Part shown: one piece after another, positions 1,387 through 63,353 of the stretch
Layout: every line of letters begins with the position of its first letter
How positions within the stretch are numbered: position 1 is the first letter of the stretch
Assembly: GCF_905475395.1 (NCBI RefSeq)
Contig: NC_058341.1
Location: 70,439,501-70,503,500 of the forward strand
Source of the DNA: Chrysoperla carnea
Lineage: Eukaryota; Arthropoda; Insecta; Neuroptera; Chrysopidae
Length of the DNA: 64,000 bases
Direction of reading: 5' to 3'
Made by a program: the position numbers and the translations under genes
The notes under the pieces: generated by a model
Databases searched by the model: none
The model's input: the letters and a program-made list of their open reading frames with translations, nothing else
Told to the model about the DNA's origin: nothing

Positions 1387-1766
1387 CCTACATCAGAGAG
1401 TATTTATGTTTGGTACCGAATCAACATAAATTTTGCTTTCGTGAAACAGCGGATGTGTTACATCGTTCAGCAAGTTACAAAACAGATTTTAGTGGTTATC
1501 GCGCAGCATTAGCTTGGAATGCTCTAAGTATGTATGCCGGTAATTTACTAGCACAGCCATGGCGAAAAGAATATCGAACAATACGATTGTATAGTGGATT
1601 TTACAAGCATGAAATTGAAGCGAATTTAGTTGGTGCTGAAATAATGCTTGAAGTTATGGGTTATAAACATGTCGGGGATAGTGTTATGGTATTAGAAGGT
1701 CCAATATGTCCGGATCGTGTCGCAAATGTATCGAGAGATTCATTGGTGGCATTTGTTGAATGTCAG
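1387..1766 (+). CDS. tamo: Tamozhennic/SPATA2-like protein, PUB-domain exon (5' partial gene)
   Basis: First of three exons of one gene. It opens after an AG at 1385-1386 with two bases finishing a codon and ends in phase 0 at CAG|GTAAAT. The translation holds the core of a PUB domain, including WRKEYRTIRLYSGFYKH and EIEANLVGAEIMLEVMGYK, as in Drosophila Tamo and vertebrate SPATA2. Known for the family: Tamo modulates nuclear import of selected cargo in Drosophila, and SPATA2 uses its PUB domain to join the deubiquitinase CYLD to the LUBAC ligase. The N-terminal exons are upstream of the window. The gene assignment rests on this PUB core together with the paired RanBP2 fingers in the last exon; the cellular role in this species is inferred from the family. 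Confidence 0.85.
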
Positions 1767-2437
1767 GTAAATGATCACTCTATATTATTTCTCTCATGTT
1801 TTTTTGGAGGGGTTTCATATCTCCTAACGACCAATTTAATATTGGTGAATAGAATCTTGAGTCAGGCAGTGGATTTGCAGTTATTTCGCTATTGCGCAAC
1901 CTATGACATTTACAAGAAAAATTAATCAAAAAACTCAATTTTTTACATCACATATTCTTTTCCTGAATTTCAAAAGAGTTCCAGAACAGATTTATTTCCA
2001 TAAGGGCTATCTTTATGCATAGGCTCAAGACTAATGTCCCACGTTGTTTGTATGTGGGGGGGGGGGGGGTATGCAGACTCTCCTGCGAGTATACAAGCCG
2101 AGAAAATAAAGGAAAAAAAACTTTCTGCGACAAAACCATGTTTTCTTGTAAAGTTTAAAACGGATTTAACTTCAGATAGTCTCATTTTTAGCACTGTAGC
2201 CCCCTATTTTTTGTTTTATTATTAAAATGCTTTTTCCGTTTTCTTTTTTGTAACAAGAAAGTTTTTTCACACCTTTCTGATTTTTTTTTTAAAAAACTTC
2301 CTACACTCTGACTTTTTCCAAAGTATTTCTCTTTAAAACTACTATTTTATAATATTGAGGTATGCTGTTATTGAGGACTCCTGAGTAAAATCTTTCATTG
2401 ATGCGACTAATATTTAATATAAAAAATTTGTTTGCAG

Positions 2438-3122
2438 ATTATAAAAAATATATGGGAAGAAATATCATCACGCTTTAAAATATCATGGCTAGATGTATTA
2501 GAATTTCGTGAAAAACATATATGTTCACCAGATCAAGCTGTTCGTGCGCTTGCTTACAGATGGCATGAACGTAATTATCAAAGTACACAAGCTCCTGTCC
2601 CAACACAAATAGTCCAACATCCTTTATCACCACCATTAGCCTCTTTAGCCCAACCAATATATAATACAACACCCATAACATCACATGTAATTGATAATTA
2701 CGCTCGATATCAACCACTAGTTGTACACGCACCGCCACCTCAACCGACTATTTATGGTACTAATCCTTATTATGGATATGGAACATATGGCACAGCGCCT
2801 GTTACTTCTTATCCTACCATCCCACATCAAAGATATGCATCGCAATATGCTCCAACTACCTATCAACCAGTAATCACACCAAAAACACCTATTTATTCAT
2901 CACCCAATAATGGTTACTGTTGTTCGCCACAAAATGGGAGCAATAGTTATGTAACAAATAGTGGTTACACGCAACAAATACCACGAACAGTTCAAGTACC
3001 CACCGGCCAGTTGATTGAACTAGACAGTGTGGCATATCAAGAACTTCCTAAGAAATCATCTTCATACAACAATAACACAGAACTGACAATACCATCACCA
3101 AAAGCTCGTGACGAAGGAACAG
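2438..3122 (+). CDS. tamo: Tamozhennic-like protein, middle exon
   Basis: Acceptor TTTGCAG precedes 2438 in phase 0, matching the previous exon. The donor is ACAG|GTACAT at 3122, leaving one base of a split glycine codon. The first 50 residues (IIKNIWEEISSRFKISWLDV...) are a conserved helical continuation of the PUB-containing region. The remainder is a low-complexity linker rich in Pro, Tyr, Gln, Thr and Ser (for example YGTNPYYGYGTYGTAP), probably disordered. The open frame runs on past the donor but only into repeat sequence, so the donor at 3122 is preferred. Confidence 0.85.
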
Positions 3123-3148
3123 GTACATACATTTATTTATTTATTGGT

Positions 3149-3650
3149 AGTCTAGTCAACAAGTTCAAATTGGTGAAGTATATAGAAATAGGTTAGGTTA
3201 TATTGGCTGTCCAAGAAGGACACACTTAGGCTATAGCTTGTTGGATTTGGAATGATGTCTAGAAAAATGTGCTAGAAGCGTCTTTTAGCACATAAAAAAA
3301 TTGCAAAAGTTATAAACAATTAAAGATAAAGAAAACAAGTTATTTCATTTTTCCCCAATATTTCATAAAATATTAATATTTAAGAAATTTCAAAAAAAGA
3401 TACTTAAAGAGAAGGAAATTTCCAATAAAAAACTTCCACTCTCGGAAGTATATCTCCATTATTTATAATCTTAATTTAACGCTGAAAATAGGTATTTTTG
3501 CGTCATTTTTGGATTGCTGTAACATCAAAAACGAGTGTCTCACACTAAATAATTTTTTAAGTTATTAAATATTAATTTGAAATAATTATGGTGTATTCTA
3601 AACACTTTAAAGAATTTACTACCGTTTGAAATTTATCTTAAAGTCAATTT
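3149..3650 (+). repeat. Dispersed repeat family B, copy 1, with a nested GGTTAGGTT insertion
   Basis: Closely matches 59562-60040 in the same orientation, from 'gtagtctagtcaacaa' on. This copy carries about 48 extra bases (about 3183-3232, containing GGTTAGGTTATATTGGCTGT) that the other copy lacks; the insert is flanked by TATA on both sides. A related piece lies in reverse at 13505-13565. Confidence 0.75.
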
Positions 3651-4340
3651 TTCAACTAAAATATAAAAATTTGTCTTTGTCTCTCTTTGGAGCTATAAAG
3701 ACGAATAATATAATATATAATATTTTGACGAATAATATAATATTTTATAACTTTAATCTCGAAACTAAGCGTTATGGGAAAGAATTACATGAGTATTATT
3801 TTGTTTAATGTTTAAAATTGGATGAAAATAATTTTTTTTTTTACTTTACAAAAAAGGTAATTTTTTTAATTAATTGAATTTAAGTTTTTGGTAGTACATA
3901 CTATATTATAATAAATAATTAAAATAATGAAAAATAATTTTATTATTAGTGTATGACTACAAGTTTTTTTTATTTGATCTCAAAATTTTTCGAACTTGCG
4001 TTCATTCTCAAAATGAATACCATGGTTTTATAAAATTTTTTGACCTTAAATATGATTACCTTGGAAACTGAAATGAAAATTTAAAGAAAATTATTTGAAC
4101 TTTAGACTCAAAATAGCAGTTCGTAACACATCCTTTTCATCGTTACACGTTGTTTTTGAATATTTCCAAATTTTAACCCTTCTAAAAATAAGGTTCCCAT
4201 TCTCGCATGTGTTTAATTGATTTTATTTGACATTTGAATTTATCATCAAATTTATGGGCATTTAAAATGCAATGGTCTGAAAAAGCTGTTGCACCAATGT
4301 TTTTTAATCGAATAGATGCACTATGTTCTTCTAGTGCAAC

Positions 4341-4880
4341 AGATTCACAAATCTTCATTTTTGTTTAGAAACAAATTTTGAAAATTTTTAGAAATATCGC
4401 ATTTTTCGAAAAAGGGCACCTTTCGTAAAAAATTTACTCTTGATCGAGAGACTAAGGTAGAGCGGTTTTTCGGTACTTAATCTCTTCGTCTAGACTTTTT
4501 TGAGCATCATATTTTAGCAGCAAGTGAAACTTGCATTTGTTAATAATAAATACTTACTTTACATTAAAAAAGAAATATTTGCAAATGTTATCTTTCGTGT
4601 AACGACGGCTATGATCCCGTTAAAATCGAGTGTTTCTGCATCCCCAAAAATGCCCTTTTTTCGAGGCCCGATTTCGGCGTCAAAAATTAAAAAATTTCAC
4701 TTGCTGCAAAAATATCATGATTGAAAAAGTCTAGGCGAAGAGATTAAACCCCGAAAAACCGCATTACCATAGTCCCTCGGCTAAGAGGAATGTTTTTACG
4801 AAAAGTGTTCTTTTTCGAAAAAATGCGATAATTCGAAAAATTTTCAAAATTGGCTAAAAAAACTGAAGATTTGTGAATCT
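4341..4880. repeat. Foldback element, about 540 bp
   Basis: Arms of about 190 bp: 4341-4533 is the imperfect reverse complement of 4690-4880. The outer ends are 'agattcacaaatctt' and its complement; the inner ends share the motif GCAGCAAGTGAAA. No coding capacity is visible. It lies in a tamo intron. Confidence 0.8.
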
Positions 4881-5455
4881 ATTACTCACAACTGCCTTAT
4901 ATATCAACTGTAAAAAGATCGAAAAAGAAAAAACGTTATAATCAAATGTAAAAACGACTATTTTCGCTCATTTTTTCATGTTATCTCGGCACCCACGCAT
5001 CCAAATCGGACTTACCATACGTCAATCGATAGGTTTTTTTGAGATCTAGAACTTTCCAATTTAATATTTTTGCATTGGACGTTAACTTTCTTTTTAAATC
5101 GCAAAATTTTTTTTTTTTTTTTTTTTGCGAATTTTTTTGTTTAACTTAGCCACAGGGCTTTTCATTTTAAAATCACGATTCACATTTGTTTCGTACTAAA
5201 TGATTTATAACCAATATGATAAAATGCATAACAAATATCTTCTATCTTAGTCCTACTTATTGCTGTCAGTACGAAAAAATAAATTCTGCACTTGCGCATA
5301 TGACATGATGAAAAGGTCTATTAAAAGCTAGCCAACAAAAGACGCTATGGTTTCTTGGCTTGTTTCCTTCTATAACAACGTATTTTTTGTTTTCTGATAG
5401 CAATTTTAAGTTTACTACTTTTTAAACACTTCAATTTCTTTTTATTACTCTACAG

Positions 5456-6144
5456 GTACTTTTGAAAGTTGGGATTACGTATTCCGAAATTTAGAAAGCC
5501 AAGGTTACAATAAGGATATGGGTCAACGAGGGGATTTACTATGTCCAGAATCAAAAAGTAAAACAAAACGAAGTGCACGAGGAGGCGAACATAAAAGTAT
5601 GAAAATTAGTGATGCCTTACAAAAGATGCGATTGGACGATGATAATTACGATAGTCGAATTAATGTAGCTCACAGTAGCTCATACGATAATCTATCATCG
5701 CACAGCTCATCAAATAATAAAGGCCGCAATAATTATTCAGTGAAAACGAAATCGTTACCACGAGAAAGTAAAACTTACGAGGATCAAGTGACTCCTACAG
5801 TTTCACAAACACTAGACGTTAAGAAAGCACGTGCGAAAACTTCATCGAAAAACGAGAATGTACGACACAAAGAACCGCCTAAAGATGAAGTGGATAACAA
5901 AAAAACAAATCCATCGACAAGCAATAGTTCAAAATGGCATTGTAATGCTTGCACATATTTAAATGTACCGACAAAAGATATCTGTGAAATGTGTGGTAAA
6001 TCAAGAAGTTCGATAACATCACCAATGCCACCAATGGCAGTTGGTGGTTCTGAATGTCCAAAATGTACTTTAATTAATGAGAAAAATGTTAAAATATGCG
6101 ATGCTTGTGGGGCAAGTTTAACAAATTCGCCTACATATATCTAG
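5456..6144 (+). CDS. tamo: Tamozhennic-like protein, last exon with two RanBP2-type zinc fingers
   Basis: The acceptor CTACAG precedes 5456 and the two first bases complete the glycine codon split by the previous donor. The exon reads GTFESWDYVFRNLESQGY..., a segment conserved in the family, then a basic and Ser-rich region, then two zinc fingers. Finger 1 is W-x-C-x2-C-T...N...C-x2-C (WHCNACTYLNVP...CEMCG); finger 2 is CPKCTLINEKN...CDACG. Both fit RanBP2/Npl4-type fingers, which typically bind ubiquitin or Ran-related partners. Stop codon at 6142-6144. Confidence 0.88.
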
Positions 6145-33384: not shown

Positions 33385-33765
33385 CATTGACTTTATAGTT
33401 ATACATAGACTAAGGATCGCCTATCTTAAACTTTCCATGCAGTGAGAAGCGTGCCAACAACTGAGGTAATTGTTTAGGTCACCTAGGGATATTTATAAAA
33501 AAACTACATTTATGAAAAGAATATAGGAATATTTTTCAAAAAAATATACATTGAATATAGGGACATTTATCAAAAAAATATACATTGAATGTTAAATTTT
33601 CATATAACAAAATGTTTTACATAAAATGTCGTAATTTCACAGAACTTTTTCGCTTTTTACTTAAAAAGATACTTATCACGTATCACTTTACATTTTTTCT
33701 TACGAATCTACAATGGATTAGGCCTAAGCAATACCTCAGATGTTGGCACGCTTAAACTCGTTTGA
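33385..33765 (+). repeat. Repeat family G, copy 1
   Basis: Shares 'atatagggacatttatcaaa', 'aaaatgttttacataaaat' and 'ttggcacgcttaaa' with 36350-36740, and its 3' part with 56102-56215. Confidence 0.75.
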
Positions 33766-36087: not shown

Positions 36088-37033
36088 CTTGTATTGGCTG
36101 CGTTCCGTATACACTGCGAGCAATGCTCAATGCTCTTACTATGTTAGAGAGAAATTCGTTCCGATATAGACTACGAGTGCACTACCGCAGTACTCTAAGG
36201 AAATTAATGACGTCATGAAACGTCCTGAATCGCCGCCTTTTTGTACTGCAAGCACTGGCGTTTTAGAGGTAAGGCACTCTCAGTGCTTTGGTCACGTGAT
36301 CGAATTCAAATAATATATATTTTCATTTAACATTAATGTAATGCATTGATGTTATAGTTTTATATAGACCAAGCATCGTCTATCTTTCCGTACAGCTAGG
36401 GATATTTATAAAAAAAAGCTGACATATGTCAGCTAGGGATATTTATTTAAAAAAAAGATTTATCAAACGAATATAAGGACATTTATCAAAAAAATATGCA
36501 TTGAATATAGGGATATTTTTCAAAAACACATACATTGAATGTCAAATTTTCATATTACAAAATGTTTTACATAAAATATCGTGATTTCACTGAACTTTTT
36601 CGCTTTTTGACTTAAAGAAAAAATACTCACGAATCACTTTACATTTTTTCTTACGCATCTTCAATGGTTGGACCTAAGCCATTACCTCAGAGGTTGGCAC
36701 GCTTAAAATCTTTGGACACTCAGTCTATATAACTCTAACATCAATGATGTAGTGCCTAAAATTTTTATTGATAAAACAATTTTACTTAACATTTTATAAT
36801 TATGGTGAATAATTTATTTATATTAATAATTGACACGAAATATTATAATTGAGAATATCTTACCTCTAAAACCCCAGTGCTTGCAGTACAAAAATGACGG
36901 AGATTCATGACGTTATTAATTCCCTTAGAGTACCACAAGACCACAGCAGTGCACTGGTAGTCTAAATCGGAACGATTTTCTCTCCAGTAAAAGCACTGAG
37001 CAGTGCTCGCAGTGTATATCGGAACGCAGCCAT
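36088..37033. repeat. Foldback element of about 945 bp next to the zinc-finger gene
   Basis: The left arm 36088-36280 is the imperfect complement of 36858-37033: GGCTGCGTTCCG faces CGGAACGCAGCC, and 'gtactgcaagcactgg' faces 'ccagtgcttgcagtac'. A family G repeat (36350-36740) lies between the arms. The right end is about 100 bp before the zinc-finger start codon. Confidence 0.82.
36350..36740 (+). repeat. Repeat family G, copy 2
   Basis: Matches 33385-33765 over most of its length. A small local duplication, 'cagctagggatatttat', appears twice at the start (about 36394 and 36429). Confidence 0.75.
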
Positions 37034-42341: not shown

Positions 42342-43346
42342 TCTATATATATAAAACAAAGTCGTGTTAGTTACACCACTTATAACTAAAGAACGGCTGA
42401 ACCGTTTTAGCTGAAAATTGGCAGGGAGGTAGTTTAAAGCCAGGAGAAGGACTTATCCCGTTCGACAGCATTCCCGTGGGACTTGATAACTGGGTTGGGT
42501 TTCGGTGGTGGTACCATCTATAGTAAACATATTGAACTAACATTTATTTCGATGGTGCGCAATCTATGGCAAACTTATTGAACTAACATTAATTTCGATG
42601 GTGGTGCCGCCTATGGTAAACATATTGAACTAACATTTATTTCGATGGTGGTGCCATCTATGGTAAACATATTGAACTAACATTTATTTCGATGGTGGTG
42701 CCATCTATGGTAAACATATTGAACTAACATTTATTTCGATGGTGGTGCCCTCTATGATGAACTTATTGGCCAATCCTTATCCTTAAACAATGGCCAATAC
42801 TTAAAAGTTTGTGGTTTAAATCTAGAACATTCATGTTTTTCCAATGGTCAATTATACGTGGTATGTTCACGGGTCGGAAGACCATCTGCGTTGTTTGTTT
42901 TTGCGCCTGATAATAAAACAAAAAATGTCGTGTATCACAAAATAATTAAATAAAGAGCAACCTATGTACTAAAATACAGAAAAAATTATGAATGATTAAT
43001 GTATTTTTTTATTTTTTTTTTTTGTAATTTTTACAATTAAAAAAAAAAAAAAACTGCTTATTTAGTGCCATTAAGGCGGAACAAAGTTCGCCAAATCAGC
43101 TAGGTATGTTCACGGGTCGGAAGACCATCTGCGTTGTTTGTTTTTGCGCCTGATAATAAAACAAAAAATGTCGTGTATCACAAAATAATTAAATAAAGAG
43201 CAACCTATGTACTAAAATACAGAAAAAATTATGAATGATTAATGTATTTTTTTATTTTTTTTTTTAATTTTTACAATTAAAAAAAAAAAAAAAAAACTGC
43301 TTATTTAGTGCCATTAAGGCGGAACAAAGTTCGCCAAATCAGCTAG
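42342..43346 (+). mobile_element. Non-autonomous Helitron with a doubled 3' end
   Basis: It starts TCTATATATATAAAAC and ends with the hairpin GGCGGAACAAAGTTCGCC followed by AAATCAGCTAG, so it has the TC start, 3' hairpin and CTAG end of Helitrons. It is inserted between A (42341) and T (43347) without target duplication. The last 243 bp occur twice in tandem (42861-43103, 43104-43346), each with its own hairpin and CTAG. There is no Rep/helicase frame, so it is non-autonomous. Confidence 0.88.
42523..42775 (+). repeat. 47-bp minisatellite inside the Helitron
   Basis: Five units of 46-47 bp start at 42523, 42569, 42616, 42663 and 42710, each beginning with 'gtaaacatattgaactaac' or a close variant, with a degraded sixth. 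Confidence 0.9.
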
Positions 43347-43899
43347 TCTATTAATATTCTGACAAAACATCAACCATGTACCTGTTCGTTCAAAAAAAAA
43401 TTTTTCTATTAATATTCTGACAAAACATCAACCATGTACCTGTTCGTTGAAAAAAAAAATTTTTGTTGTTGCATGTTTGGCTCTTCGCCCAGACCTTGGG
43501 TTCCCGGGCTGATTTTCCAGCATTTGTTAGAGTAATCTTAAATCTTTATTTTCCGCAACAGAAAACTCACGTACCTGTTCGATAGGAAAATTTGCATGTC
43601 TCTCTTAGTCTAATAATGTAGCATTCTATGGATGAAAGAAATTTTAAAAACGGTTACATAATCCCAGATAAATGAAAGTACAGGATTATCAATAAATGGG
43701 ATCATTAAATTTGTGTGCTATTTGAAGTAGGTACGAGTTAGAAGGAAAAATTTTCTCTCTCTTGGGAATATCATAAATGTAAAAGCTATATCCCAGCCAG
43801 ATGAAGGTATGGATTTATCAATGAATGGAGTATTTCCGAAAACTGGGATTGTATGGAAAAATTCATTATAATGTATAAATAAAATAAAACACTAAAAAA

Positions 43900-45525: not shown

Positions 45526-45639
45526 CTATAACAATCAGAATAATTTTTAAAATAAAAACGCCTTGGATAAAAATACGAATTCGTATTTTAAAATTTATTT
45601 CCTAAAGACATGCTATGACGGATAACTGTCAAATACGCA

Positions 45640-46240
45640 ACCAAAATATTAAAGGAATTGTATCGAAATTTCAAGCAACTGTATCTCTGCAAAAAACATC
45701 GAATTTAAAAGGGCAATAATGGCTCGTTTGAAAACTTGTACTTTCTAGTTTTGGAATCTATTGTTCAAAAATTTTGATCACACCTTGCTGCTTTGAACGG
45801 AGGGTTGAAAAATGTTATCCCTAAATTTTATATGAAGTTTTAAAGCGTACCAAAATTTAAAAAATTATTTTACAGCTTTTACATTTTAGACCACTCGAAA
45901 GATTGTTTATATTTCTTGAAAATGAGCTATAAAAATTTCCATGCGAGCTTTTTTGCCTAAGAGATTCGATTTCTAGGCAAAATTTGCACTTTTGGGTTTA
46001 AAATCCAGTATCATTTGAAATAATCACTGAAATTTTTTTTTTATCATTTGAAAATATAAACTTCCTTTTTTAAGCCTTGGCATATTGTTTTTTTTTTTTT
46101 TTTTTTTTATTTTTACCACTCTTTAAATTTTGGTTTTTAAAACATGTCAAAAACAGAATTTTCCATATTTTAGGCGTTTTTTCACGTGGCTGTTATTTTA
46201 TAGCAAAAGGGGCCTTATCTAAAATCTTGAGTTGAGATAT
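45640..46240 (+). repeat. Dispersed repeat family A, copy 1
   Basis: Matches about 57800-58300: 'ttctagttttggaatctatt' is in both, as is 'gaaaatgagctataaaaatt' with few changes. A short related stretch also lies right of the virus at 50778-50850. Ends are not defined. Confidence 0.6.
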
Positions 46241-46259
46241 AGTTATTGAAATAAATACC

Positions 46260-46383
46260 GGGAATTCACCGATCCGGACGCCGGCCGAAGGCCATGGCAT
46301 GTCCAAGGATCAAGGTGAATTCCCCACTCCACGTGTTGGTGTTGGATAAAAGAGAATTTTTTTATCTTTTAATGTTACCCATG
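46260..46383. repeat. Left inverted terminal repeat of the endogenous densovirus
   Basis: The inner part (about 46313-46383, containing CCCCACTCCACGTGTTGG) is the reverse complement of the right end at 50621-50688 with few differences. The outer 60 bases (46262-46321) fold on themselves: GAATTCACC at one end faces GGTGAATTC at the other, with a smaller inner palindrome GCCGGCCGAAGGCCATGGC. This is the branched terminal hairpin expected of a parvovirus end. Confidence 0.88.
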
Positions 46384-46470
46384 TTAATATCATGGTGATC
46401 ATTATATTACAGATGCTGTATATTAAAAGTCTTATATGGAATACGAGAGATGTATTATGTAGAATAAGAG

Positions 46471-46507
46471 ATATATAAAAGGCTTAACTTAGAAAATAAT
46501 AGTCAGT
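46471..46507 (+). promoter_or_regulatory. Capsid-side promoter of the viral copy (TATA box and leader)
   Basis: TATATAAAAGG at 46472-46482 lies 26 bp before a CAGT initiator-like motif directly at the start codon. This is the position expected for the capsid promoter in an ambisense densovirus. Whether it works today is unknown. Confidence 0.6.
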
Positions 46508-47410
46508 ATGTCTCCGGGAAGAAACAGAGGACAACTTATATATACGTTAAGACAACGTGAGTTACGCGAAGCTTTTAAAAAACAAAATAGAATAAAAAAT
46601 TATAACGAGTGGGTGAAAACTTCTCAAACTGCTAAAGATATTATAAAATCATGGTCTCGTGGTGGAGCGAGTTATAATGATTTTATTACGGCGGGTACTT
46701 CAAGAGCCAATAACGACGACAGAGCAGACGACAAAGAACCGGAATCCGTTAACGACGCAGAACCCGTAGAACCCGAACAACCCGAACAATCAGACTCAAA
46801 CTTTTCTCCATATATGTCTCCGGGAAGAAACAGAGGACAACTTATATATACGTTAAGACAACGTAAGTTACACGAAGCTTTTAAAAAACAAAATAGAATA
46901 AAAAATTATAACGAGTGGGTGAAAACTTCTCAAACTGCTAAAGATATTATAAAATCATGGTCTCGTGGTGGAGCGAGTTATAATGATTTTATTACGGCGG
47001 GTACTTCAAGAGTCAATAACGACGACAGAGCAGACGACGACGAACCGGAATCCGTTAACGACGCAGAAACCGTGGAACCCAAACAACCCGAACAATCAGA
47101 CTCAAACTTTTCTCCATATATGTCTCCGGGAAGAAACAGAGGACAACTTATATATACGTTTAGACAACGTGGGTTACGCGAAGCTTTTAAAAAACAAAAT
47201 AGAATAAAAAATTATAACGAGTGGGTGAAAACTTCTCAAACTGCTAAAGATATTATAAAATCATGGTCTCGTGGTGGAGCGAGTTATAATGATTTTATTA
47301 CGGCGGGTACTTCAAGAGCCAATAACGACGACAGAGCAGACGACGACGAACCGAAATCCGTTAACGACGCAGAACCCGTGGAACCCGAACAATCAGACTC
47401 AAACTTTTGA
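46508..47410 (+). CDS. Endogenous densovirus capsid N-terminal region, three tandem units, open over 300 codons
   Basis: The frame starts at the first ATG after the viral promoter and is open to a TGA at 47408-47410. It consists of three near-identical units of 102 residues (306 bp, starting at 46508, 46814 and 47120), each beginning MSPGRNRGQLIYT and ending in an acidic Asp/Glu/Pro linker with QSDSNF. The third has lost nine bases of the linker. It lies where a densovirus encodes the unique N-terminus of the large capsid protein. I see no calcium-loop or His-Asp phospholipase motif in the unit. The next capsid segment is in another frame and begins after TTTTAATAG, a possible splice acceptor, so the split could be native or could be decay. 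Whether any protein is made is unknown. Confidence 0.75.
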   Translation: MSPGRNRGQLIYTLRQRELREAFKKQNRIKNYNEWVKTSQTAKDIIKSWSRGGASYNDFITAGTSRANNDDRADDKEPESVNDAEPVEPEQPEQSDSNFSPYMSPGRNRGQLIYTLRQRKLHEAFKKQNRIKNYNEWVKTSQTAKDIIKSWSRGGASYNDFITAGTSRVNNDDRADDDEPESVNDAETVEPKQPEQSDSNFSPYMSPGRNRGQLIYTFRQRGLREAFKKQNRIKNYNEWVKTSQTAKDIIKSWSRGGASYNDFITAGTSRANNDDRADDDEPKSVNDAEPVEPEQSDSNF

Positions 47411-47420
47411 ATTTTAATAG

Positions 47421-48161
47421 GATATTAATATTGAAGACTTTGAGTCCTTTGTTAACAGTATACTTAGTTCTGGTGTTACTGAAGTTACTGGTAAAAACAT
47501 TTTGCAATTCATGGATAGTATGGAAGTATCGCTTGATGAACAAGCCATGGAGTTGGATAGCCACCAAGCTCGTAGTGGTGAGAAATCTGGAGGATCCAGA
47601 TCGTCTAATAGGGGAATTGGCATAATACAAAGACTACCAAAAGGTATTGGATGTAATTCAACAAAATTACATTTTTCTAAAACTTTTTTAATGTATTCTT
47701 ATGGATATGCTTGGCCTTATTTTACTGTGGATTCGAATTCTTATCAAGCTACAAGTTTGGCATTAATACCTGTTGATTTTTTACCTTCATATTTATCAAA
47801 AACAGAATTTGATCATTTACCAGCTGGATCAAGAATGACTGAATCAAATGTTAAATATGGTTTAGATGCAGCTAATCCTATGGTACCTACAAGTGCAACT
47901 AAAATGGATGGTACAGTTCTATATGATAAAATGTATAAAGGTACTGCTCTAATGATTCTTGGTATACCAAGGTCAATATCTGATTATTGGGCACTAGTCA
48001 GATCAACAACAGCGGATAAAAATAATCCGAACACTGGTGGTCATCCTAGATTGGATAAATTAATAAATCGGTTTATGGTTACTAATACAGCAGATACAAA
48101 TTTATGTACTTATCATTATAAATGTAAAAATGCAATTTTAAAATCACAAAAAAAGACTTAA
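47421..48161 (+). pseudogene. Endogenous densovirus capsid protein, first part
   Basis: Open from 47421 (after TAATAG) to the TAA at 48159-48161. The central part has the character of an ambisense densovirus capsid: SKTFLMYSYGYAWPYF, then LALIPVDFLPSYLS and EFDHLPAGSRM, landmarks of the jelly-roll start in this group. Translation breaks just after a run of seven A at 48148-48154, beyond which the capsid continues in a different frame. The break looks like a one-base length change in that run. Confidence 0.88.
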
Positions 48162-48709
48162 TTCCTTTGGCATCACCTTTTGCTATTGAAGCAAATAGCA
48201 TGAATACGACTACAGTACAAAGAAAAGATACTTTAGCGAAAGGAACTGTAACATTTGAAAATACTTCAGATGGAAAGAATTTACCTACCTACGAAAAAAT
48301 ATCAACACAATTTGCAGAAAGTTATATTAGACAATTAGAAAATTATGCTGTAAATAGTCCAAGAAATCATACAGAAACACCAATTGCTCAACCACAACTT
48401 TATGTCGGAATATTTCCTGTACCACAATTAAGTCCAGCAACAGATACTGTTAACTTTCAAAATACATCTATATATTTAGAAGTTACCATGGCTTGCGAGG
48501 TAGAATATAATTACAATTCTACTTATTGTGAAGATCAATATGTTACAACTCTGGAAAATAATTTCATGAATCCAGATGCTATGACTTATGATGGCCGTAC
48601 ATTGTTTGGATTGAACTATAGGAAGAATGGAAATGTAAAAAAATCATCAAGAACTCCTGTAACAACAAGGAATGTATATCAGGCATTTAAAAAAATAAGA
48701 ATGAAATAA
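48158..48709 (+). pseudogene. Endogenous densovirus capsid protein, C-terminal part
   Basis: Continues the capsid in the frame entered at the A-run. It is open to the TAA at 48707-48709 and ends VYQAFKKIRMK, with no stop inside. The segment contains PQLYVGIFPVPQLSP and YLEVTMACEVEY, consistent with the C-terminal part of the capsid fold. It has no ATG near its start and cannot be made on its own as a normal capsid. Confidence 0.85.
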
Positions 48710-48739
48710 TTTATTGTTAAAATGTTTTTTATTAATAAA
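48710..48739. terminator. Convergent poly(A) signals of the viral copy
   Basis: AATAAA on the plus strand at 48734-48739 serves the capsid side. AATAAA on the minus strand (48715 to 48710) serves the NS side. The two overlap in the way expected of ambisense densovirus transcripts, whose 3' ends meet in the middle. Confidence 0.65.
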
Positions 48740-48755
48740 ATATGTATTACAAAAT

Positions 48756-48905
48756 TTATAGTATTTCATTTGGATCATAATATTCATCTTCTTCACTATC
48801 ATTTTATTTCAGTTTGTTCAACTATAGGTAAGTTAGATAATTTATTGATGTTATATTTTAACATTAATACATATATATTGCATGAGGATGCGGTTTTAAT
48901 TTGAA
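48756..48905 (-). pseudogene. Endogenous densovirus NS1, C-terminal remnant
   Basis: Read leftward, the segment ends DSEEDEYYDPNEIL before a TAA at 48758-48756, an acidic tail that fits the end of the large NS protein. A shift separates it from NKLSNLPIVEQTEIK just upstream. Between this and the helicase block at 48940-49140, sequence that the family normally has is missing, so an internal deletion is inferred. Confidence 0.6.
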
Positions 48906-48939
48906 CTTCTTCAAATATGGACAAATATGGTTTCCTAAA

Positions 48940-49140
48940 CTAAACCATTAGGCTGATCTTTATTCTTGCTGGACATTTGTCACCACCAAACAACATCTTA
49001 ATCATATCATGTGATGCTGGTTCGCAATTAGGTTCGTTCCAAATTAATTTTCTTTTTGAAATTACTTCTTGTAATGGAAAGTTGCAATATCTATTGAAAC
49101 CAATAGAACCAAAGCATAATGAAAAAGATAATATTGTATC
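48940..49140 (-). pseudogene. Endogenous densovirus NS1, helicase Walker B block in a shifted frame
   Basis: The leftward frame here reads LIWNEPNCEPASHDMIKM and FGGDKC before a TAG, which fits the Walker B and following motif of a parvovirus superfamily 3 helicase. It is out of frame with the main NS1 segment; the switch falls at the Walker A motif near 49145-49160. Confidence 0.75.
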
Positions 49141-50486
49141 GATAAAGTAAGTTTTCCAGCTGATGGTTCAGAAATTATTTTTAAAGTATTTTTTTTAGCT
49201 AATGTTTTTTCAAAAATATAATATACATTCTGGAGAAATTCAATGTAGTCGTCTGGATGTTGGAATTTGATTAATGCATCCAATATATCTAAAGATTGAT
49301 TTACATCATAATAATATTCAGAAATATTTCCATTTGGTGCATTAAATATGCACACATCAGAAATTCGTATAGTTAGTTCATTGAAAGACATATCCATAAT
49401 TTGTGTGGCAAGTATATTGGACACAGTTTGTAATAAAGGATGAGATTTACTATATGTATATACAAAATCACTTTGATGATATATTGTCGTATTAAAAATC
49501 AAAGATAAAGGAGCTGACAGATGCATTTTTAACCAATTTAGAATTTTGTCTCCTTTTCTTCTATAGTTTTCTGTGTTTCGTTTATTCTTGACGCTACTAT
49601 TATTATTTCCTCCAGCTTGCGATGAAGCGGATCCACAATCGAGGAGACATTGAACTGAGTTCGAATCCTGGCTTCCTTCCAGTAATCCTTCTTGTCCTTG
49701 TTGCGAATGGCTTTGAAGGGATACAAATTTAATTTCACCACTTCGTATGCAGGTTCGCCCGGCGACCTCGCAGTGGATAACTGACCTTTGCCCTTTATAC
49801 AGATATGCTGTTGTATTACGCCAGTGTTCAATTTTGTAGGTCCTTGCATGAATAACTTTTCGATTGCATCGGTCTGTTGGCCAGTTGTTAATTCGGGCGC
49901 ATCTGCATTGGTATGAGTGGTATGTGCAGTCGTGGATGACATGGTAGTGGTCGCCGTGGGTTGCGACGAGAAATATTGTTCCGGCGAGATGTTGTTGTAT
50001 GACTCGTTCAACATTTCTATCACTGTCGCCGGATGATTCGTCTTCGCGGAGCTCTTTCGCGAAATCCAACCATGATATTTTCGTCAATGTACTCTTTTTG
50101 TTTTTGCATTTCGTGAGTAATTGCTTCATGAATTCCTTTATTACAAGTATTATCTGATATAAGATTCGCTTCCCGGCTAGATCCCTCTTCTCCACCAATT
50201 GCTTCTGACAATGAATTAATGATGGAAGTAATTTGTGGATCGTCACGTTGTCCACCCACATTAGCTCCAACCAATTGAGAAAAGAGTCCTCCTTCTGTTC
50301 TTCGTCTTCTTCTTGGTTCATGATTCCATTCTGAATCAGATCCTGTGTCTGACATATCTCCTCTTGTTGGAATGTCACATTCTTCTTCTTCTTGCATTGA
50401 GGTTCGTCGTGATCGCTTTCTTCCTCCGATCCACTCGAAACTTGAATGGGGCGACGAGATCTCGACATCTTCAATATTTTCTTCAC
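49062..50486 (-). pseudogene. Endogenous densovirus NS1 initiator domain (with the NS2 N-terminus in the same frame)
   Basis: The long leftward frame has two parts. From about 50040 down it carries the HUH endonuclease motif of the replication initiator (HGDHYHVIHDC) and, near the end, a Walker A-like EPSAGK at about 49150 where the frame is lost. Upstream of about 50060 the same frame reads MSRSRRPIQVSSGSEEESD from 50468, which is more likely the start of the overlapping NS2. NS1 in this virus group combines a nicking domain and a superfamily 3 helicase and drives rolling-hairpin replication. Here NS1 is broken at its 5' junction, at Walker A and by a C-terminal deletion. Confidence 0.82.
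49538..50023 (-). pseudogene. Endogenous densovirus NS2, C-terminal part
   Basis: A 161-codon leftward frame overlapping NS1, as NS2 does in densoviruses. It starts MIEMLNESYNNISPEQY and ends EEKETKF. Its frame differs from 49062-50486 by the same step that separates 49062-50486 from 50020-50604, so one indel near 50020-50060 would place both NS1 and NS2 pairs in register. The protein has no recognisable domain. Confidence 0.65.
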
Positions 50487-50580
50487 AACCTAAATCACGA
50501 TCACGAACTAATTCTGAAGTATGAGGATGTAATAAATACTCCTCTAATTGTTGACTAAAACTTAAGTTATCTTTAGACAT
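50020..50580 (-). pseudogene. Endogenous densovirus NS1, N-terminal part
   Basis: Starts at ATG 50580 (MSKDNLSFSQQLEEYLLHP), the first start codon after the NS-side TATA box, and is open to a stop at 50022-50020. It is acidic and Arg-rich in the middle and contains GGLFSQLVGANVGGQRDD. The initiator domain lies downstream in the neighbouring frame, so this is read as the NS1 N-terminus cut off by an indel. It could instead be a separate small NS protein, but its overlap and ending fit the frameshift reading better. Confidence 0.68.
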
Positions 50581-50599
50581 ACTAATACAATATATACAG

Positions 50600-50620
50600 A
50601 CCACCTACTTATATATCAAA
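50600..50620 (-). promoter_or_regulatory. NS-side promoter of the viral copy
   Basis: On the minus strand GATATATAAGTAGG lies between the right terminal repeat and the NS start, about 30-40 bp before the ATG at 50580. It mirrors the capsid-side promoter at the other end. Confidence 0.6.
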
Positions 50621-50718
50621 TGGGTAACATTAAAAGATAAAAGAATTCTCTTTTATCCAACCCCAACACGTGGAGTGGGGAATTCACCGATCACCGATGT
50701 CCAAAGATCAAGGTGAAT
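50621..50718. repeat. Right inverted terminal repeat of the endogenous densovirus
   Basis: Reverse complement of the inner left repeat over about 70 bases. The outer part (50680-50718) still has GAATTCACC facing GGTGAAT, but the inner branch seen on the left is gone, so this end has a simpler hairpin. Confidence 0.87.
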
Positions 50719-50776
50719 AAATACCACGATACTCTAATTTTATTTCGAGTATCGTGGTATTTATTTAAATAACTAT
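50719..50776. repeat. Host palindrome arm pair at the viral insertion site
   Basis: ACCACGATACTC faces GAGTATCGTGGT across a 13-base loop. The palindrome's outer part, 'atttatttaaataactat', finds its partner not next to it but on the far side of the virus at about 46238-46259 ('atagttattgaaataaat'). Confidence 0.8.
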
Positions 50777-50850
50777 TGTACTTTCTTGTTTTGGAATATA
50801 TTGCTCAAAAGTTTTTATAATCTCTTGTCGCTTTTTACTGGGGGGTGAAA

Positions 50851-51012
50851 AAATTATTACGATAAGATAATGTAGTTACAATTATTGCTATTTTTGAAGT
50901 CGGTGTCAGCCACGGAAACAACTGTGACTGAACAGTTTGCTACATTAAGTTGGCTGACACCGATTCCAAAAATAGCAATAATTGTAACTACATAATATTT
51001 TCGTAATAATTA
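50851..51012. repeat. Foldback element of about 160 bp
   Basis: 'atgtagttacaattattgct' faces 'agcaataattgtaactacat' exactly. The arms continue into 'gtgtcagcc' facing 'ggctgacac'. The loop is about 45 bp. Confidence 0.87.
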
Positions 51013-56967: not shown

Positions 56968-57029
56968 GTAAGTTTTTACTTGAAATAGTAATGTTTTGTT
57001 CCACTTTTAAGATACTAAAAAATTTTTAG

Positions 57030-57754
57030 GTGAAAAAGATGTATTTATTTCAATGCCAACGGGTTCGGGTAAATCGTTATGCTATCAGTTACCAGCCGTA
57101 ATTTGTGAGAATCAAGTTGCAATTGTTGTATCACCATTATTGGCTTTAATCAAAGATCAAATTGATCACTTGAATGATTTGAAAATTAAAGCCACAACAA
57201 TTAATTCCAAAACTAGTGAAACTGAACGTAAAAAGTTGATAGCTGATTTATTAGGCACTAAATCTGATACAAACACTTCAAAAAGTAAATTAAAACAAAC
57301 GAAATTATTCGAGAAAATTGAAAAAACATCGAATACTTCGCATAAGTTATTGTATATAACACCCGAACAAGCGGCTACAAAAAATTTCAAATCGTTATTT
57401 TCACAATTAATCGAGTTAAATCGAATTTCGTATTTCGTGGTTGATGAAGCACATTGTGTATCAGAATGGGGACACGATTTTCGACCCGATTATGTGCGTC
57501 TTGGAACATATCGCAGTTTAGCACCGAATTTACCATGGATTGCATTGACTGCAACTGCATCCAAAGATGTTACAAAAGATGTGATTGCATCGTTAAGATT
57601 ACGTGATAAATATATTAAATTTAAAGTGTCCAGTTTTCGTAAAAATTTGTATTATGATGTCGTTTTCCAGGATATTATATCAAATCCTATCGAGGATTTA
57701 AAAGAATTTATTGGTACGTGTTTTAGAACGGATCCAGATAATGATAAAAGTTTG
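57030..57754 (+). CDS. RecQ5: RecQ5 DNA helicase, exon 2 (ATPase domain)
   Basis: The acceptor TTTTTAG precedes 57030. The exon holds the Walker A motif PTGSGKS (about residues 41-47), [15 protein letters not shown] (motif Ia), the DEAH box in [19 protein letters not shown] (motif II with the RecQ aromatic-rich loop, about 170-186), and ALTATA (motif III). All catalytic residues expected of a RecQ ATPase are present. It ends in phase 0 at TTTG|GTAAGC. Confidence 0.92.
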
Positions 57755-59293
57755 GTAAGCCTTTTTCATTTAACAAAAAAAGTTAATTAACTTCCTGCCA
57801 GTGTCAAAAATATACACAAGCAAAATATTAAAGAAACAAAATTTTACCAAAATTTCAAACAGCTGTATTTCTGCGAAAAATTATCGAATTTGAAACCGCA
57901 ATAGCTCATTTGAAAAATTGTACCTTCTAGTTTTGGAATCTATTGCTCAAAAATCACCCAAACCCATCAATTGAAAGGGTGAGATATATCGATTAATTTT
58001 ATATAAAGTTTAGAAAAGCGTACTAAAATTTTACAAATTATTTTAAAACAAATTTGTTAAGACCACTCGAATTTATTATATTTCTTGAAAATGACCTATA
58101 AAAAATTCCCGTACGAGCTTTTTACCAAGATATTCGCTTTTCAAGCTATATGGACACTTCTGGATTTAAAAATCTGTATCATCTGAAATAGGCCAATCAA
58201 ATTAAACATTGAACGTTGCATCAAATCGGGTATTGCTGTTTTTTGATATGTTGTTTGCAATGTAGAGGCATTGTTAAATCCAAGTTTCTGACTTCGACAG
58301 ATGAGCGGAAAAATAAAAAAAAACCTCGAAGATATTAACCTTATTTCAGTTTTTGCTGATTTTGACCCGGAAGGATTGAGTTTTTCTCAAAAATTTCAGT
58401 GTTCATTTTTAAAGAAGGTTAAATTATCAACAATTTGAGATCAAACCGGATTTTAGAGGACCGATAATTTCGGAGATACAACTTTTAAAATTTTTTCTAT
58501 CGTTAGAGATAGAACAAAAGTTTAAATGTAAAAAATGCTTTTTATAAAACAATAAACAACTTTTGTTTGTAACATTTTTTTGTAAATATCACTATTAATC
58601 CGTGAAGGCGCTAAATAGGAAAAAATTTCGGTGTCCATTTTCTCCAAAACTATGGATAGATAGTTGAAAATTTGCAGGTTGCTTCAACTATTAGTTTTGC
58701 AAAACAATCTGAAAAAAAAAATTTAGGAATTACTTTCAAAAATTATCGAAAACCAATTAAATGGCGTCCGAAAGCTTTCCATATTAAAGTGATTTTTTAA
58801 ACACTTCTAGTTTAAAAAAAAAATGCAAGCACTGACATTAAACACTTTCTATACAGGGTATTTCAACAATTAACTCAGTTAATTGTCTGTTTTCGCTTGT
58901 TGTTTTCGGACCAAAGTTTTATCATAATTTGCGTCTTTTGTAAACAATTTGTGTCATATTTATAAAAAAATATTTGAAACAAAGAAAATTTGATTCTCTA
59001 CAAAAAGTTTTACATAAAATTTCTCGAAATTTTGCTTAGTTTACGAGATATTTGGAAAAATACTAAAAGGGGTGCTTTTTTACTTCTATCTTCAATATCC
59101 ACCCTCTTATTTAATAGCACTCTGCGTTTTTTTCTTCTTTAATAATCCATTGAACGATTCCTGCAATAAAAATCCGTGAACATCTTAGTTCCTTTCTACA
59201 TGACGCAATCAATAGCCCAAAATTCTCAAAAAAGTTTGGTATTTGCATAAATACCTGAAAATGAACCTTAGTGAATCTCCGTTATGATTTTAG
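57755..59293 (+). other. recQ5 intron 2 with repeat copies
   Basis: About 1.5 kb. Contains a family A repeat (about 57800-58300) and a family J repeat (58980-59230). The acceptor is GATTTTAG at 59293. Confidence 0.7.
58980..59230 (+). repeat. Repeat family J, copy 3
   Basis: Matches 30870-31090 and 40520-40740 in the same orientation ('ttacgagatatttggaaaaa', 'atccaccctcttatttaata'). Confidence 0.75.
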
Positions 59294-59511
59294 GAAAAAA
59301 AAGGTTGTGGAATTATTTATTGTCGAACTCGTGCCGCTACAGAAAATTTATCAACAGATTTACAAGAGAAAGGTGTATCAGTGACATGTTATCATGCTGG
59401 ATTATCAAGTAAAGAACGACAATCAGCTCAAGACAGATGGCAATCTGGTATTATACGTGTTATATGTGCTACGAATAGTTTTGGTATGGGTGTAGACAAA
59501 GCGTCCGTTAG
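59294..59511 (+). CDS. RecQ5: RecQ5 DNA helicase, exon 3 (helicase motifs IV-V)
   Basis: Phase 0 at entry. Reads CGIIYCRTRAATENL (motif IV), CYHAGLSSKER, then VICATNSFGMGVDKASV (motif V). The order and spacing are those of the second RecA-like domain of RecQ. It ends with two bases of an Arg codon at AG|GTAAAA. Confidence 0.92.
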
Positions 59512-59561
59512 GTAAAATTTATTTTTATTGTAACAAAAAACAATCAAGTAGAAATATCACT

Positions 59562-60040
59562 GTAGTCTAGTCAACAAATTCAAATTGGTAAAATATATAT
59601 AGCTTGTTGGATTCGGAATGATGTCTATAGGAAAATATGGCAGAAGCGTTTTTCAGGACATAAGCATTTGCTAAAAGTTATAAAAAATTAAAGATGAAAA
59701 AAAGTATCTTGATTTTCGCCAATTTAATAAAATATTAATATTTAAGAAATTTCAAAAATATTTTTTTTAAAAAGATTCTTAAAGAAGATTCTTTCTCATT
59801 CCCGGAAATTTATCTGCATTATTTATAATTTTAATTTAACGCTGAAAATAGGACTTTTTTCGTCATTTTTAGTTTGTTGTAATATCGTCAAAAACGAGTA
59901 TCTCACACTAAATAATTTTTTTAAAGTATTAAATAAAAATTTAAAAATTTGAAAGAATTATGGTGCATTTTGAACACATTAAAGAATTTATTACCCTTTG
60001 AAATTTATGTCCAAGTAATTTTTCAACAAGTTAAACAATT
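59562..60040 (+). repeat. Dispersed repeat family B, copy 2 (without the GGTTAGGTT insert)
   Basis: Matches 3149-3650. Where copy 1 has the roughly 48-base insert, this copy reads straight through ('aaaatatatatagcttgttgg'), so it represents the empty site. Confidence 0.78.
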
Positions 60041-60266
60041 TTTACAATTGTTTATTAACAAAATTTTCTCGAATTTTCGTTTTCTTTGTAAACTAAAAAA
60101 AGGTTTAAATAATTGGCATTAAATTTGTTTGTTTCGTGGAACCCTTCTTATATATATACTTAACAAATTCACGTCAAAAGAATTTATTTAACAAAATAAG
60201 AACATTTTAATACTTTGTTTATAATAATTTTTTAAACTTTTATGACGTGAACTTGTTAAGTATAGT

Positions 60267-60840
60267 ACCTGGATTACCGGGCTTTACTCGGTACTTTTTG
60301 AGTTAAAAAAGGCACAAATTTTATCACTAATATAAGAACCATTTAAAATGTATCCGCACAAATACTAATTTGAATGTCCCTGTAATGTATTTTATTTCGT
60401 CGAAAGTTGATAAGTGGGAAGTAATCAGGTGGTCCTAATTGGAATTACTAAAAAAACGAACCAGTTTCTGTTGAATAGTACTAATTTTTATCGCCATTTG
60501 GCTGTATTTATCTGATTTGAATATGAATATTTATTATTAGCCTTAAAAAATGGTAAGTGCAAGTATTGACATTTGCTAGTCGAAATTGTAACTACTGAGT
60601 TCGGATCTTCTTCTGATTTTAATTTGTACGAATTATTATTGTCAGTTGGTCAGTTGCATCTCCCAGTTATTTATAGATGATAGGAGATGATAGGAAGTCA
60701 TATTTTGCAGTCAATGTTTCAGTATTTCCTGAAAACACGGATAAAACTACGTTTTATAAAAATGAAACCTAGCTAGATCGATTTTTCGCCCCAAAAACCC
60801 CCTGCATACTAATTAATAAACCCCTAAAGCCCCTATATAC
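60267..60840 (+). mobile_element. DINE/Helentron-like element, 5' part
   Basis: Starts CTGGATTACCGGGCTTTACT and shares 'ttttgagttaaaaa' and 'caaattttatcactaatata' with 51883 onward. The conserved tail with the microsatellite is not seen. Confidence 0.55.
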
Positions 60841-61378
60841 TTTTAATTTATTGGTAGACGGTTTTATCGTGTAAAAACTTTAACATAACTAAAGTTTGTA
60901 AATTCCCATTTTTCTTAGCGTTTTCACGGTTTTATTATGAATCTACGAGATTAATAATTATGCAGAGCTAGTAGGGAAACTCTTAACGAAGAAAATGTTT
61001 TTTTTTTTAAACTGTCGCATGGCTATTTCGAAGCACCTACCTTTTTTTTACATAAGATACCATTAAAAGCTATAATTTGAGCCCCGAACAGATTTCCTGT
61101 GAGTCCAACAATTGGCAAAAATGCTATTTTTTGCGATAAAACCGAGTTTCCTCGAAAAGTTTCGAATGGATTTGATTTCATTTTTTTCGTTTTTAAAAAC
61201 AGCGGATATAGAACCAGAAACCAGCTTCAACTTTTCTAAATCTTGAATATTGAAAAAGGCTTTAGGTGATTTGTAATAATTTTCCATTATTATTATTTCA
61301 CAGGATGGTAGAAAATTTATACCAAATTATCGGACAATTAAATAAATATTTTTATACAATAATTTTTTCCGTTTCCAG

Positions 61379-61618
61379 ATTTGTTATACATTGGGGTGTT
61401 GCCTCAAGTATTGCATCGTACTATCAAGAATCTGGAAGAGCTGGTCGTGATGGAAAACCATCGAAATGTCGAATATATTATTCACAAGTTGATCGTAACG
61501 CATTACAATATAATTTACAACAACAATTTTCTGAATGTGATACCGATAAAAAAAAGAAAATTGCTGAAAATACGTTACAAAATTTTTTGAAAATGATTGA
61601 ATATTGTGAGACTGCCAA
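61379..61618 (+). CDS. RecQ5: RecQ5 DNA helicase, exon 4 (motif VI)
   Basis: The acceptor TTTCCAG precedes 61379 and its first base completes the Arg codon. The exon has FVIHWGVASSIASYYQESGR followed by AGRDG, helicase motif VI with its arginine finger region, then the start of the zinc-binding subdomain (CRIYYS...). It ends with two bases of a codon at AA|GTATGT. Confidence 0.92.
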
Positions 61619-63353
61619 GTATGTTTCTTTTTTCTATTTTTATGATATTACAATATAATTTATTACCCTCTTAGCCTAAAAAATTAGACAAAAAAGAGCA
61701 AAATTTCAAAAAAATCTGGCACAGATTAATTTATATGGATATCTTTCTAATTTTTACAAAAGTTTAATAATCTACCCCCCACCCCATTAACTTTGATCGA
61801 GATTTTTATTTTTATAGGTCCGCGATTGTTTTTGGGTGCATCGTGTTCAGGAAATTCCCTTGATTATTTTTATACCTTTTTTTCGTCCAAGCGGTAGGAA
61901 AAATGAAAATGGCCCCCTATTTTTATTAAATTATTTATGTGAGTTTTTTATTCAAAATGGAAAAAAAATTGATTTTAGAATATTTTTTAATGTACCAAAA
62001 TACTTCTTGTCTTTTAAATTATTTTCTTGTCTTTTCAATTGTAAAATCTCCTAAGATATCGTCAAAATTAATTTCAATATAGACAATAATGACAAATTCA
62101 AACCGATCCTCTCGGTACTTCTCGAAAATTTTTTTTTCCTGCAAATAATGATTTTTTTTTTAAATTGTCTTCTAGTATAGGCGCCGAGTGGGTTTCGTAT
62201 GCATTTACAAGTCCGATCGAAGAAGGAGTGTATTTTGACCATCTGAATCCAAATTTTCAATCTACTCATCGATCAGTGTGGGGTGGAGGGAATTTGTTAT
62301 AAACAAATTAATAGTTTATACGGTCACAGATCCTCCAACAATTTATACCATTTTATTCAACATGAAAAAACAAATATTGCCTTTTTTTATTCGTCTTGAT
62401 ACGACCAATAAAACCGGACATATGGTTAAAATTGTAAACAAAAAAGATTTTGCAAGGTCGGCGCGCAACGCTTGGTTTGAAGCGTCCGTATATTGGCCAA
62501 TAAGTAATATTTTTGTGCTTAAAGTTACTCATTTTAAAGTAATGAGTCTATATTTTAATGTTATGTACATAAAAATACGTTTTATGCAATAGCATCGAAG
62601 CTACACGATTGTGAGTATTAATTTTTAACATTTTTCCGGCCCGCTATTAGTTTATATTTGAAAAAAATAAAAAAGATTTTCAAAATAATTATGTGGAGTT
62701 GTTATTCACTAAGACCTTGGTTTCGACTTATAAACTAATAGCGGGCCGGAAAAATGATAAAACTTAATACTTACAATCGTGCTAGCTTCGTTACTATTGC
62801 ATAAAACGTATTTTTATGTGCATAAAATTAAATTATAGACTCATAATTTTAAAATGACAACCTTAAAAAAACTATTTATTGGCCAATCGACGGACGTTTC
62901 AAACCAAACGCTCCGCCGACCTTATGCAAAATCATTTTTGTTTACAATTTTAACCATATCTCCGGTTCTATTTGTCGTATCAAGACGAATAAATAAAATA
63001 ATTATTTGTTTTTTCATGTAGATTAAACTTATAAACTATTAATTTGTTTATAACAAATTTTCCCCCCACTCTGAGCGATGAGCAAGTTGAAAATTCGCAT
63101 TTAGCGGGTCAAAATACGTTGAAATACACTCCTTGTTCGGTAGGACCTGTAAATGCATACGAAACCCACTCAGCGCATACACTACTCTTTGGGGTACCTA
63201 ATTTGCCTTAGTATAAATCCAAATATATTATTTTTGCATTGTTTTGTGTGTTCTATTTATTAAGTCGGGTATTTTTGGTATTACCCCCTCGGAAACAAGT
63301 ATGTAAATAAAATTTTCAAATACTATTAACGATTTTTTTTTTTTTAATTTTAG
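61619..63353 (+). other. recQ5 intron 4 with a giant palindrome
   Basis: About 1.7 kb; more than half is the foldback element at 62175-63183. The acceptor is AATTTTAG at 63353. Confidence 0.75.
62175..63183. repeat. Foldback element of about 1.0 kb, arms of about 460 bp
   Basis: The ends 'gtataggcgccgagtgggtt' and 'aacccactcagcgcatacac' are inverted. Matches run nearly to the centre: 'ttttccggcccgctattagt' (62632) faces 'actaatagcgggccggaaaa' (62734). The open frame at 62278-62592 is part of one arm and mirrored in the other, not a gene. Confidence 0.88.

Follow-up and report, generated by a model that had tools for sequence, protein, structure and literature searches.

A complete densovirus genome appears to have been captured by the green lacewing Chrysoperla carnea. 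In a window of 64,000 nucleotides (contig NC_058341.1, assembly GCF_905475395.1, positions 70,439,501 to 70,503,500), an ambisense densovirus genome of ~4.46 kb lies inside host DNA at window positions 46260-50717. We read this element, with a probability of roughly 0.92, as a complete densovirus genome that was inserted in the host chromosome and later damaged. It shows the features of its class, namely a capsid of the Denso_VP4 family, convergent nonstructural (NS) and capsid (VP) units, and hairpin inverted terminal repeats (ITRs) in flip/flop orientations. Its joining to host DNA on both sides is seen in a target-site duplication, in a host hairpin that reappears when the flanks are rejoined, in its position on a 76-Mb contig, and in the gene domains that flank it. 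Because the NS1, NS2, and VP frames are all broken, the integrated copy is a fossil and no longer codes for a working virus. It adds one well-preserved case to an already known type of viral fossil, and with both junctions, the target, and the tip orientations visible together, it can serve as a test case for the entry of linear parvovirus genomes into chromosomes.

Part of this had been proposed in an initial annotation made from the letters alone, which described a near-complete densovirus with both terminal repeats at 46260..50718. Both ITRs were found, as were protein matches for capsid and NS1, and the limits are accurate to one base or a few, the AAT at the right edge being assignable either to the virus or to the target-site duplication. 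The annotation also held that a whole genome had been captured and then damaged, with which the protein matches, the duplication, and the rejoined hairpin are consistent; capture in the germ line we infer from one assembly. Beyond that annotation, the analysis brought out the overlapping NS2, the triplicated capsid segment, and the lack of a PLA2 motif and, at the ends, the duplicated target site, the host hairpin, and the orientation of the tips.

Coding regions and their damage

Among 4588 candidates, the 474-aa NS open reading frame (ORF) had one match, P0001 (E 6.6e-158), an intact 654-aa NS1 relative from a public 3916-base contig, with which 229 of 297 aligned positions are identical (77%). 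The 294-aa core common to both contains HYH, and the aligned stretch also has SEPSAGK; we take these to be the HUH nuclease motif and a Walker-like motif, respectively. P0001 carries Parvo_NS1 (Pfam, E 2.9e-13), and its matches in the PDB are entries named Non-structural protein 1 and Rep40/Rep68, the latter presumably the Rep of adeno-associated virus (AAV). By tblastn, P0001 aligns to window positions 50592-48759 as residues 5-190 (63%), 199-495 (77%), 495-638 (52%), and 600-654 (60%), so that the Parvo_NS1 / SF3 helicase region is present by homology to this relative, minus ~80 nt.

The capsid is spread over three ORFs, and the frame of piece 1 differs from those of the N-terminal ORF and of piece 2. 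Piece 1 matched Denso_VP4 in Pfam (E 1.3e-6 on 47502-48158; 1.8e-6 on 47421-48158) and the Galleria mellonella densovirus capsid, 1dnv, in the PDB (E 6.5e-8). Piece 2, tested as 48167-48706, matched Denso_VP4 at E 1.7e-6, and the PDB entry 4mgu (VP2) was reached from the capsid pieces at E 0.0056 and, for piece 2, 0.003. The NS and capsid segments, which the initial annotation had wanted compared with densoviruses, both match parvoviral or densoviral proteins. A protein search with capsid piece 1 returned only the window's own protein among 121 candidates, a weak negative in that full-length capsids of relatives may fall outside the searched length range.

The predicted regulatory layout was also found. 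Both promoters are present, with TATA boxes at 46472 (plus strand) and 50608 (minus strand), and the convergent poly(A) signals share the palindrome at 48728, a 12-mer with two occurrences in the window. The GC content of the element is 0.349, vs 0.304 for the remaining window. Subtracting two extra copies of a capsid segment (see below) leaves ~3.85 kb, which places the element at the low end of the densovirus range of 3.9-6.3 kb (PMC6521121).

The initial annotation put the damage down to several minor changes and a single NS1 deletion. This is broadly right, but the final 200 bases of NS1 are scrambled to a greater degree, and VP and NS2 are broken as well. From the tblastn coordinates, NS1 shifts frame near 50.03 kb and again near 49.15 kb; ~80 nt are lost near 48.9 kb, in the helicase part where the Parvo_NS1 domain ends; and over the final ~200 bases the match jumps frames and contains a stop. 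The NS2 frame runs open first through the N-terminal part of ORF 49062-50489 and continues in ORF 49538-50083; the chance of these stretches staying open is 2.1e-5 and 1.0e-4, rough figures based on base composition alone. Judging by the ORF phases, the frame shifts of NS1 and NS2 coincide in both position and sense, which suggests that a single event broke the two genes together.

The triplicated capsid N terminus, in combination with the lack of a PLA2 motif, is unusual. ORF 46508-47410 consists of three head-to-tail, in-frame copies of 306 bp (102 codons), open over 305 codons. Every copy starts with ATG, the third is slightly shorter, and the similarity between copies ends one base ahead of the first ATG. 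Pairwise, the copies differ at 8, 6, and 8 positions within their first 270 bases. Over codons 1-90 of each copy (the last 12 were excluded, the third copy being shorter there), nonsynonymous and synonymous codons stand at 6:1, 4:1, and 7:0. Strong purifying selection on the copies was rejected on these counts, nonsynonymous changes being dominant; with nine variable codons in all, the counts do not separate drift after integration from earlier relaxed change.

No PLA2 motif (search patterns HD..Y, [YF].G.G, and GPGN) was found in the three plus-strand frames of 46383-48161, and because the TATA box begins 36 bases before the ATG, there is little room for one upstream. PLA2 is a feature of most, not all, ambisense densoviruses. 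As a free ambidensovirus without it has been published (PMC6466187), we do not take its absence here as excluding membership in the Densovirinae.

Other identities for the repeat ORF were considered as well. The whole triplicated ORF drew 16 families in Pfam, two of which, MUG113 and Ub-Mut7C, lay just over the whole-protein cut-offs with no single stretch passing, and we attribute these matches to the repetition itself. Of the three single units, two matched no family and one matched MUG113 at E 0.076 (14 bits vs a cut-off of 22.3); the same family is the database label of P0003, the protein-search listing of the repeat ORF. One unit searched against the PDB at E up to 10 gave no match. A protein search with the triplicated ORF found the window's own protein only among 5599 candidates, an absence made weak by the length range searched.

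Ends, target, and rival explanations

The ITR arms, 46314-46382 and 50620-50688, match in inverted orientation at 97% over 69 nt (94.8% over 77 nt when extended with a gap). None of 200 shuffles of the left tip was equally stable when folded as DNA; the right tip is shorter, with a fold z of -2.77 and 2/200 shuffles equally stable. A direct repeat between 46299-46320 and 50697-50718 (95%), together with the comparison of the tips, places them in opposite, flip/flop orientations, as known in Bemisia tabaci ambidensovirus (PMC12297876). With 2/69 positions different between the arms and the repeat copies 2-3% apart, the insertion is probably fairly young.

The 10 bases preceding the left end, AATAAATACC (46250-46259), are repeated at 50716-50725, and these two sites are the only plus-strand occurrences of the 10-mer in the window. 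Since the AAT may be viral, the target-site duplication is 7-10 bp long. Among 20,000 random pairs of host points, allowing a match within 10 bp of offset, matches of at least 10 bp were found in 3 and of at least 7 bp in 73. When the flanks are rejoined with the duplication counted once, they form a hairpin with 30-base arms, 29/30 paired and one mismatched, while the best of 300 random joins paired 22/30 (mean, 16.3).

A second candidate for the duplication, the repeat 50776-50852 / 45736-45812 (79% over 77 nt), was rejected as a host repeat, since 45633-46023 also matches 57812-58190. Copies of this dispersed repeat thus lie on both sides of the virus (45633-46023, 50776-50852, and 57812-58190; 75-79% identical), and the fragment at 50776-50852 begins where the target hairpin ends. 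A short way past the right junction is another hairpin, 50852-51011, with 61-bp arms (92%) and 38 nt between them, which looks like a miniature inverted-repeat transposable element.

The following history would account for these observations. A complete linear ambisense genome with both hairpin ends was most likely joined to the chromosome where one arm of the host hairpin had broken, and fill-in of the staggered break, a repair route suggested by the sequence at the junctions, would have left the duplication. In that genome, as in the copy, VP would have been encoded on the plus strand and the overlapping NS1 and NS2 on the minus strand, the two units meeting at the common poly(A) palindrome. 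The N-terminal capsid segment was presumably triplicated in frame shortly before or after insertion, and the NS1, NS2, and VP frames would have been lost afterwards, a timing that rests on the 2-3% divergence of the ITR arms and repeat copies.

The part of this history that lends itself best to testing is the insertion into a palindrome, which raises the question whether densoviruses enter at palindromes by a directed staggered cut. AAV vectors reportedly favour palindromes with ~20 bp arms (Inagaki et al. 2007). It is conceivable, though doubtful, that densoviruses insert by such a route, in which a cruciform-forming palindrome is cut by the viral nickase or by structure-specific enzymes of the host; a staggered cut of fixed size would then admit whole genomes with both hairpins and give a transposon-like duplication of 7-10 bp. 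Linear densovirus DNA transfected into cell culture integrated with rearrangement (PMC5978394), whereas the copy described here is clean.

The hairpin at the borders has a second possible reading, as viral DNA from the outer portion of the telomere, in which case the left end would have lost ~45 nt and there would be no target-site duplication. The outer borders, 46239-46259 and 50756-50776, do match in inverted orientation and so resemble an extension of the ITRs. Moreover, a 20-mer of the hairpin, searched across the window with up to 3 mismatches, matched only its own two arms and no further copy that would mark it as a host repeat. However, the left ITR is already closed by a long hairpin at 46260; the right border has a hairpin of its own, to which the left border contributes the outer arm that it lacks, provided the 10-bp duplication is taken as a single copy; and the telomere explanation requires a separate, precise deletion. 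We consider it unlikely. A copy kept for the host (in its NS2-like part or its capsid repeats), or one still moving as an ITR-based transposon, is less probable again. The triplicated segment does remain open and the TATA boxes are retained, the target-site duplication is transposon-like, and densovirus-derived genes of aphids act in wing plasticity (PMC10594914). Yet NS1 is broken, the differences between the repeat copies are mainly amino-acid changes and give no indication of purifying selection, and the capsid and repeat proteins are each listed from a single contig. As for an assembly artefact, in which free-virus DNA was misjoined to host contigs, the full genome length, the presence of both ends, and the small number of lesions are what such DNA would give. 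Broken NS and VP frames, ITR arms that differ from each other, the duplication, and the rejoined hairpin all speak against it, as does the listing of the window's capsid and repeat proteins, each once, on a contig of 76,427,138 bases, and we regard an artefact as very improbable indeed.

Several observations weigh against our preferred reading, an inserted and later damaged complete genome. Protein scans of IMG/VR and a DNA scan with a 21-base ITR pattern returned no relative there, neither a nucleotide relative nor a named virus. The 474-aa NS ORF by itself matches no Pfam family. The triplicated unit is placed in the capsid by position and strand alone, and the tip of the right ITR is shortened. 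Some of the VP frame changes could be natural splicing and not damage, two causes that are inseparable here; the VP of Myzus persicae densovirus is naturally spliced (PMC11642819).

Comparison with known parvovirus copies

A close parallel is found in Echinococcus multilocularis (PMC6880638), where, as here, endogenous densoviruses retain NS1 and VP genes, some with broken frames, and at least one NS1/VP pair is flanked by ITRs on both sides. The tapeworm differs in having 26 NS1 loci, several of them arranged head to tail, and in placing VP directly downstream of NS1; the lacewing window has one ambisense copy, with a target-site duplication and a capsid triplication. Bemisia tabaci ambidensovirus (PMC12297876) shares with the present element an ambisense, homotelomeric genome with flip/flop ends, NS2 inside NS1, convergent units, and integrants in its host, but its VP has PLA2, and the integrants are partial; the one detailed is 1.6 kb long and its ITR is incomplete. 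The ambidensovirus associated with Tetranychus urticae (PMC6466187) likewise has a compact ambisense genome and a VP without the PLA2 motif; it is a free virus with an NS1 of 354 aa, vs 654 aa for P0001, and we compared it by description only. Myzus persicae densovirus and the densovirus-derived genes of aphids (PMC11642819, PMC10594914) come from hemipterans and are similar in ambisense organization, overlapping NS ORFs, and endogenous copies; their VP has PLA2 and introns, and the endogenous copies described there are gene-length or shorter. Partial densovirus copies in aphids (PMC10759679, PMC10594914) and NS1 copies in flatworms (PMC13055364) have also been reported.

ITR-bearing copies are described for tapeworms (PMC6880638) and one bat (PMC2987831). 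The parvovirus insertions of mammals (PMC2987831) are, like the lacewing copy, complete or nearly so, the Myotis lucifugus insertion being the one with ITRs, but they belong to vertebrate parvovirus genera. The same paper notes target-site duplications for RNA-virus copies in mammals and states that nothing similar was seen in insects (PMC2987831). In the literature examined, where coverage of subscription papers is thin, a target-site duplication is described for no densovirus copy, and we make no wider claim of priority. Vertebrate parvoviruses, for their part, have their genes in order on one strand.

Feature coordinates and neighbouring host sequence

Table 1. Features of the integrated densovirus genome and its junctions (window positions)
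Feature	Positions	Strand	Basis
Left host flank: outer left hairpin arm; 46250-46259, left duplication copy	46239..46259	+	Inverted match to 50756-50776
Left ITR, long closed terminal hairpin	46260..46382	+	Repeat match, fold z -4.84
Capsid-gene TATA box, TATATAAAAGG	46472..46482	+	Sequence
Capsid N-terminal ORF, three tandem units	46508..47410	+	Assigned by position
Capsid piece 1 (stop-to-stop frame), N-terminal part of VP4 domain	47421..48161	+	Denso_VP4, 1dnv
Capsid piece 2, C-terminal part	48128..48709	+	Denso_VP4, 4mgu
Palindrome TTTATTAATAAA, poly(A) signals for both convergent genes	48728..48739	.	Sequence
NS1 footprint, broken	48759..50592	-	tblastn of P0001, four pieces
NS2, overlapping NS1 in a different frame	49538..50489	-	ORF phases
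NS-gene TATA box, CTTATATA (TATATAAG read on the minus strand)	50608..50615	-	Sequence
Right ITR, shortened tip, flop orientation relative to left	50620..50717	-	Repeats, fold, tip comparison
Right host flank: duplication copy 50716-50725, remaining hairpin, and right arm	50716..50776	+	Fold z -8.98, 0/200 shuffles

Host gene domains flank the virus on either side: on the left a SPATA2 PUB-like domain and zinc fingers of the C2H2 type, on the right a DEAD helicase domain. At 1311-6144, the SPATA2 PUB-like domain (1311-1922) and zinc-ribbon domains (5410-6141) perhaps belong to one gene, which would be tamozhennic-like. Probable exons of a helicase gene, presumably RecQ, lie at 57011-61658; the DEAD domain occupies 57011-57787, and 61266-61655 matches Helicase_C weakly, under the cut-off.

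Tandem repeats were also seen elsewhere in the window. A cluster of arrays at 42500-43464 comprises units of 47 bp (5.7 copies), 243 bp (2 copies, 97%), and 58 bp (2 copies), and two short arrays of a near-identical 34-base unit lie 3 kb apart at 33519-33590 and 36469-36540.

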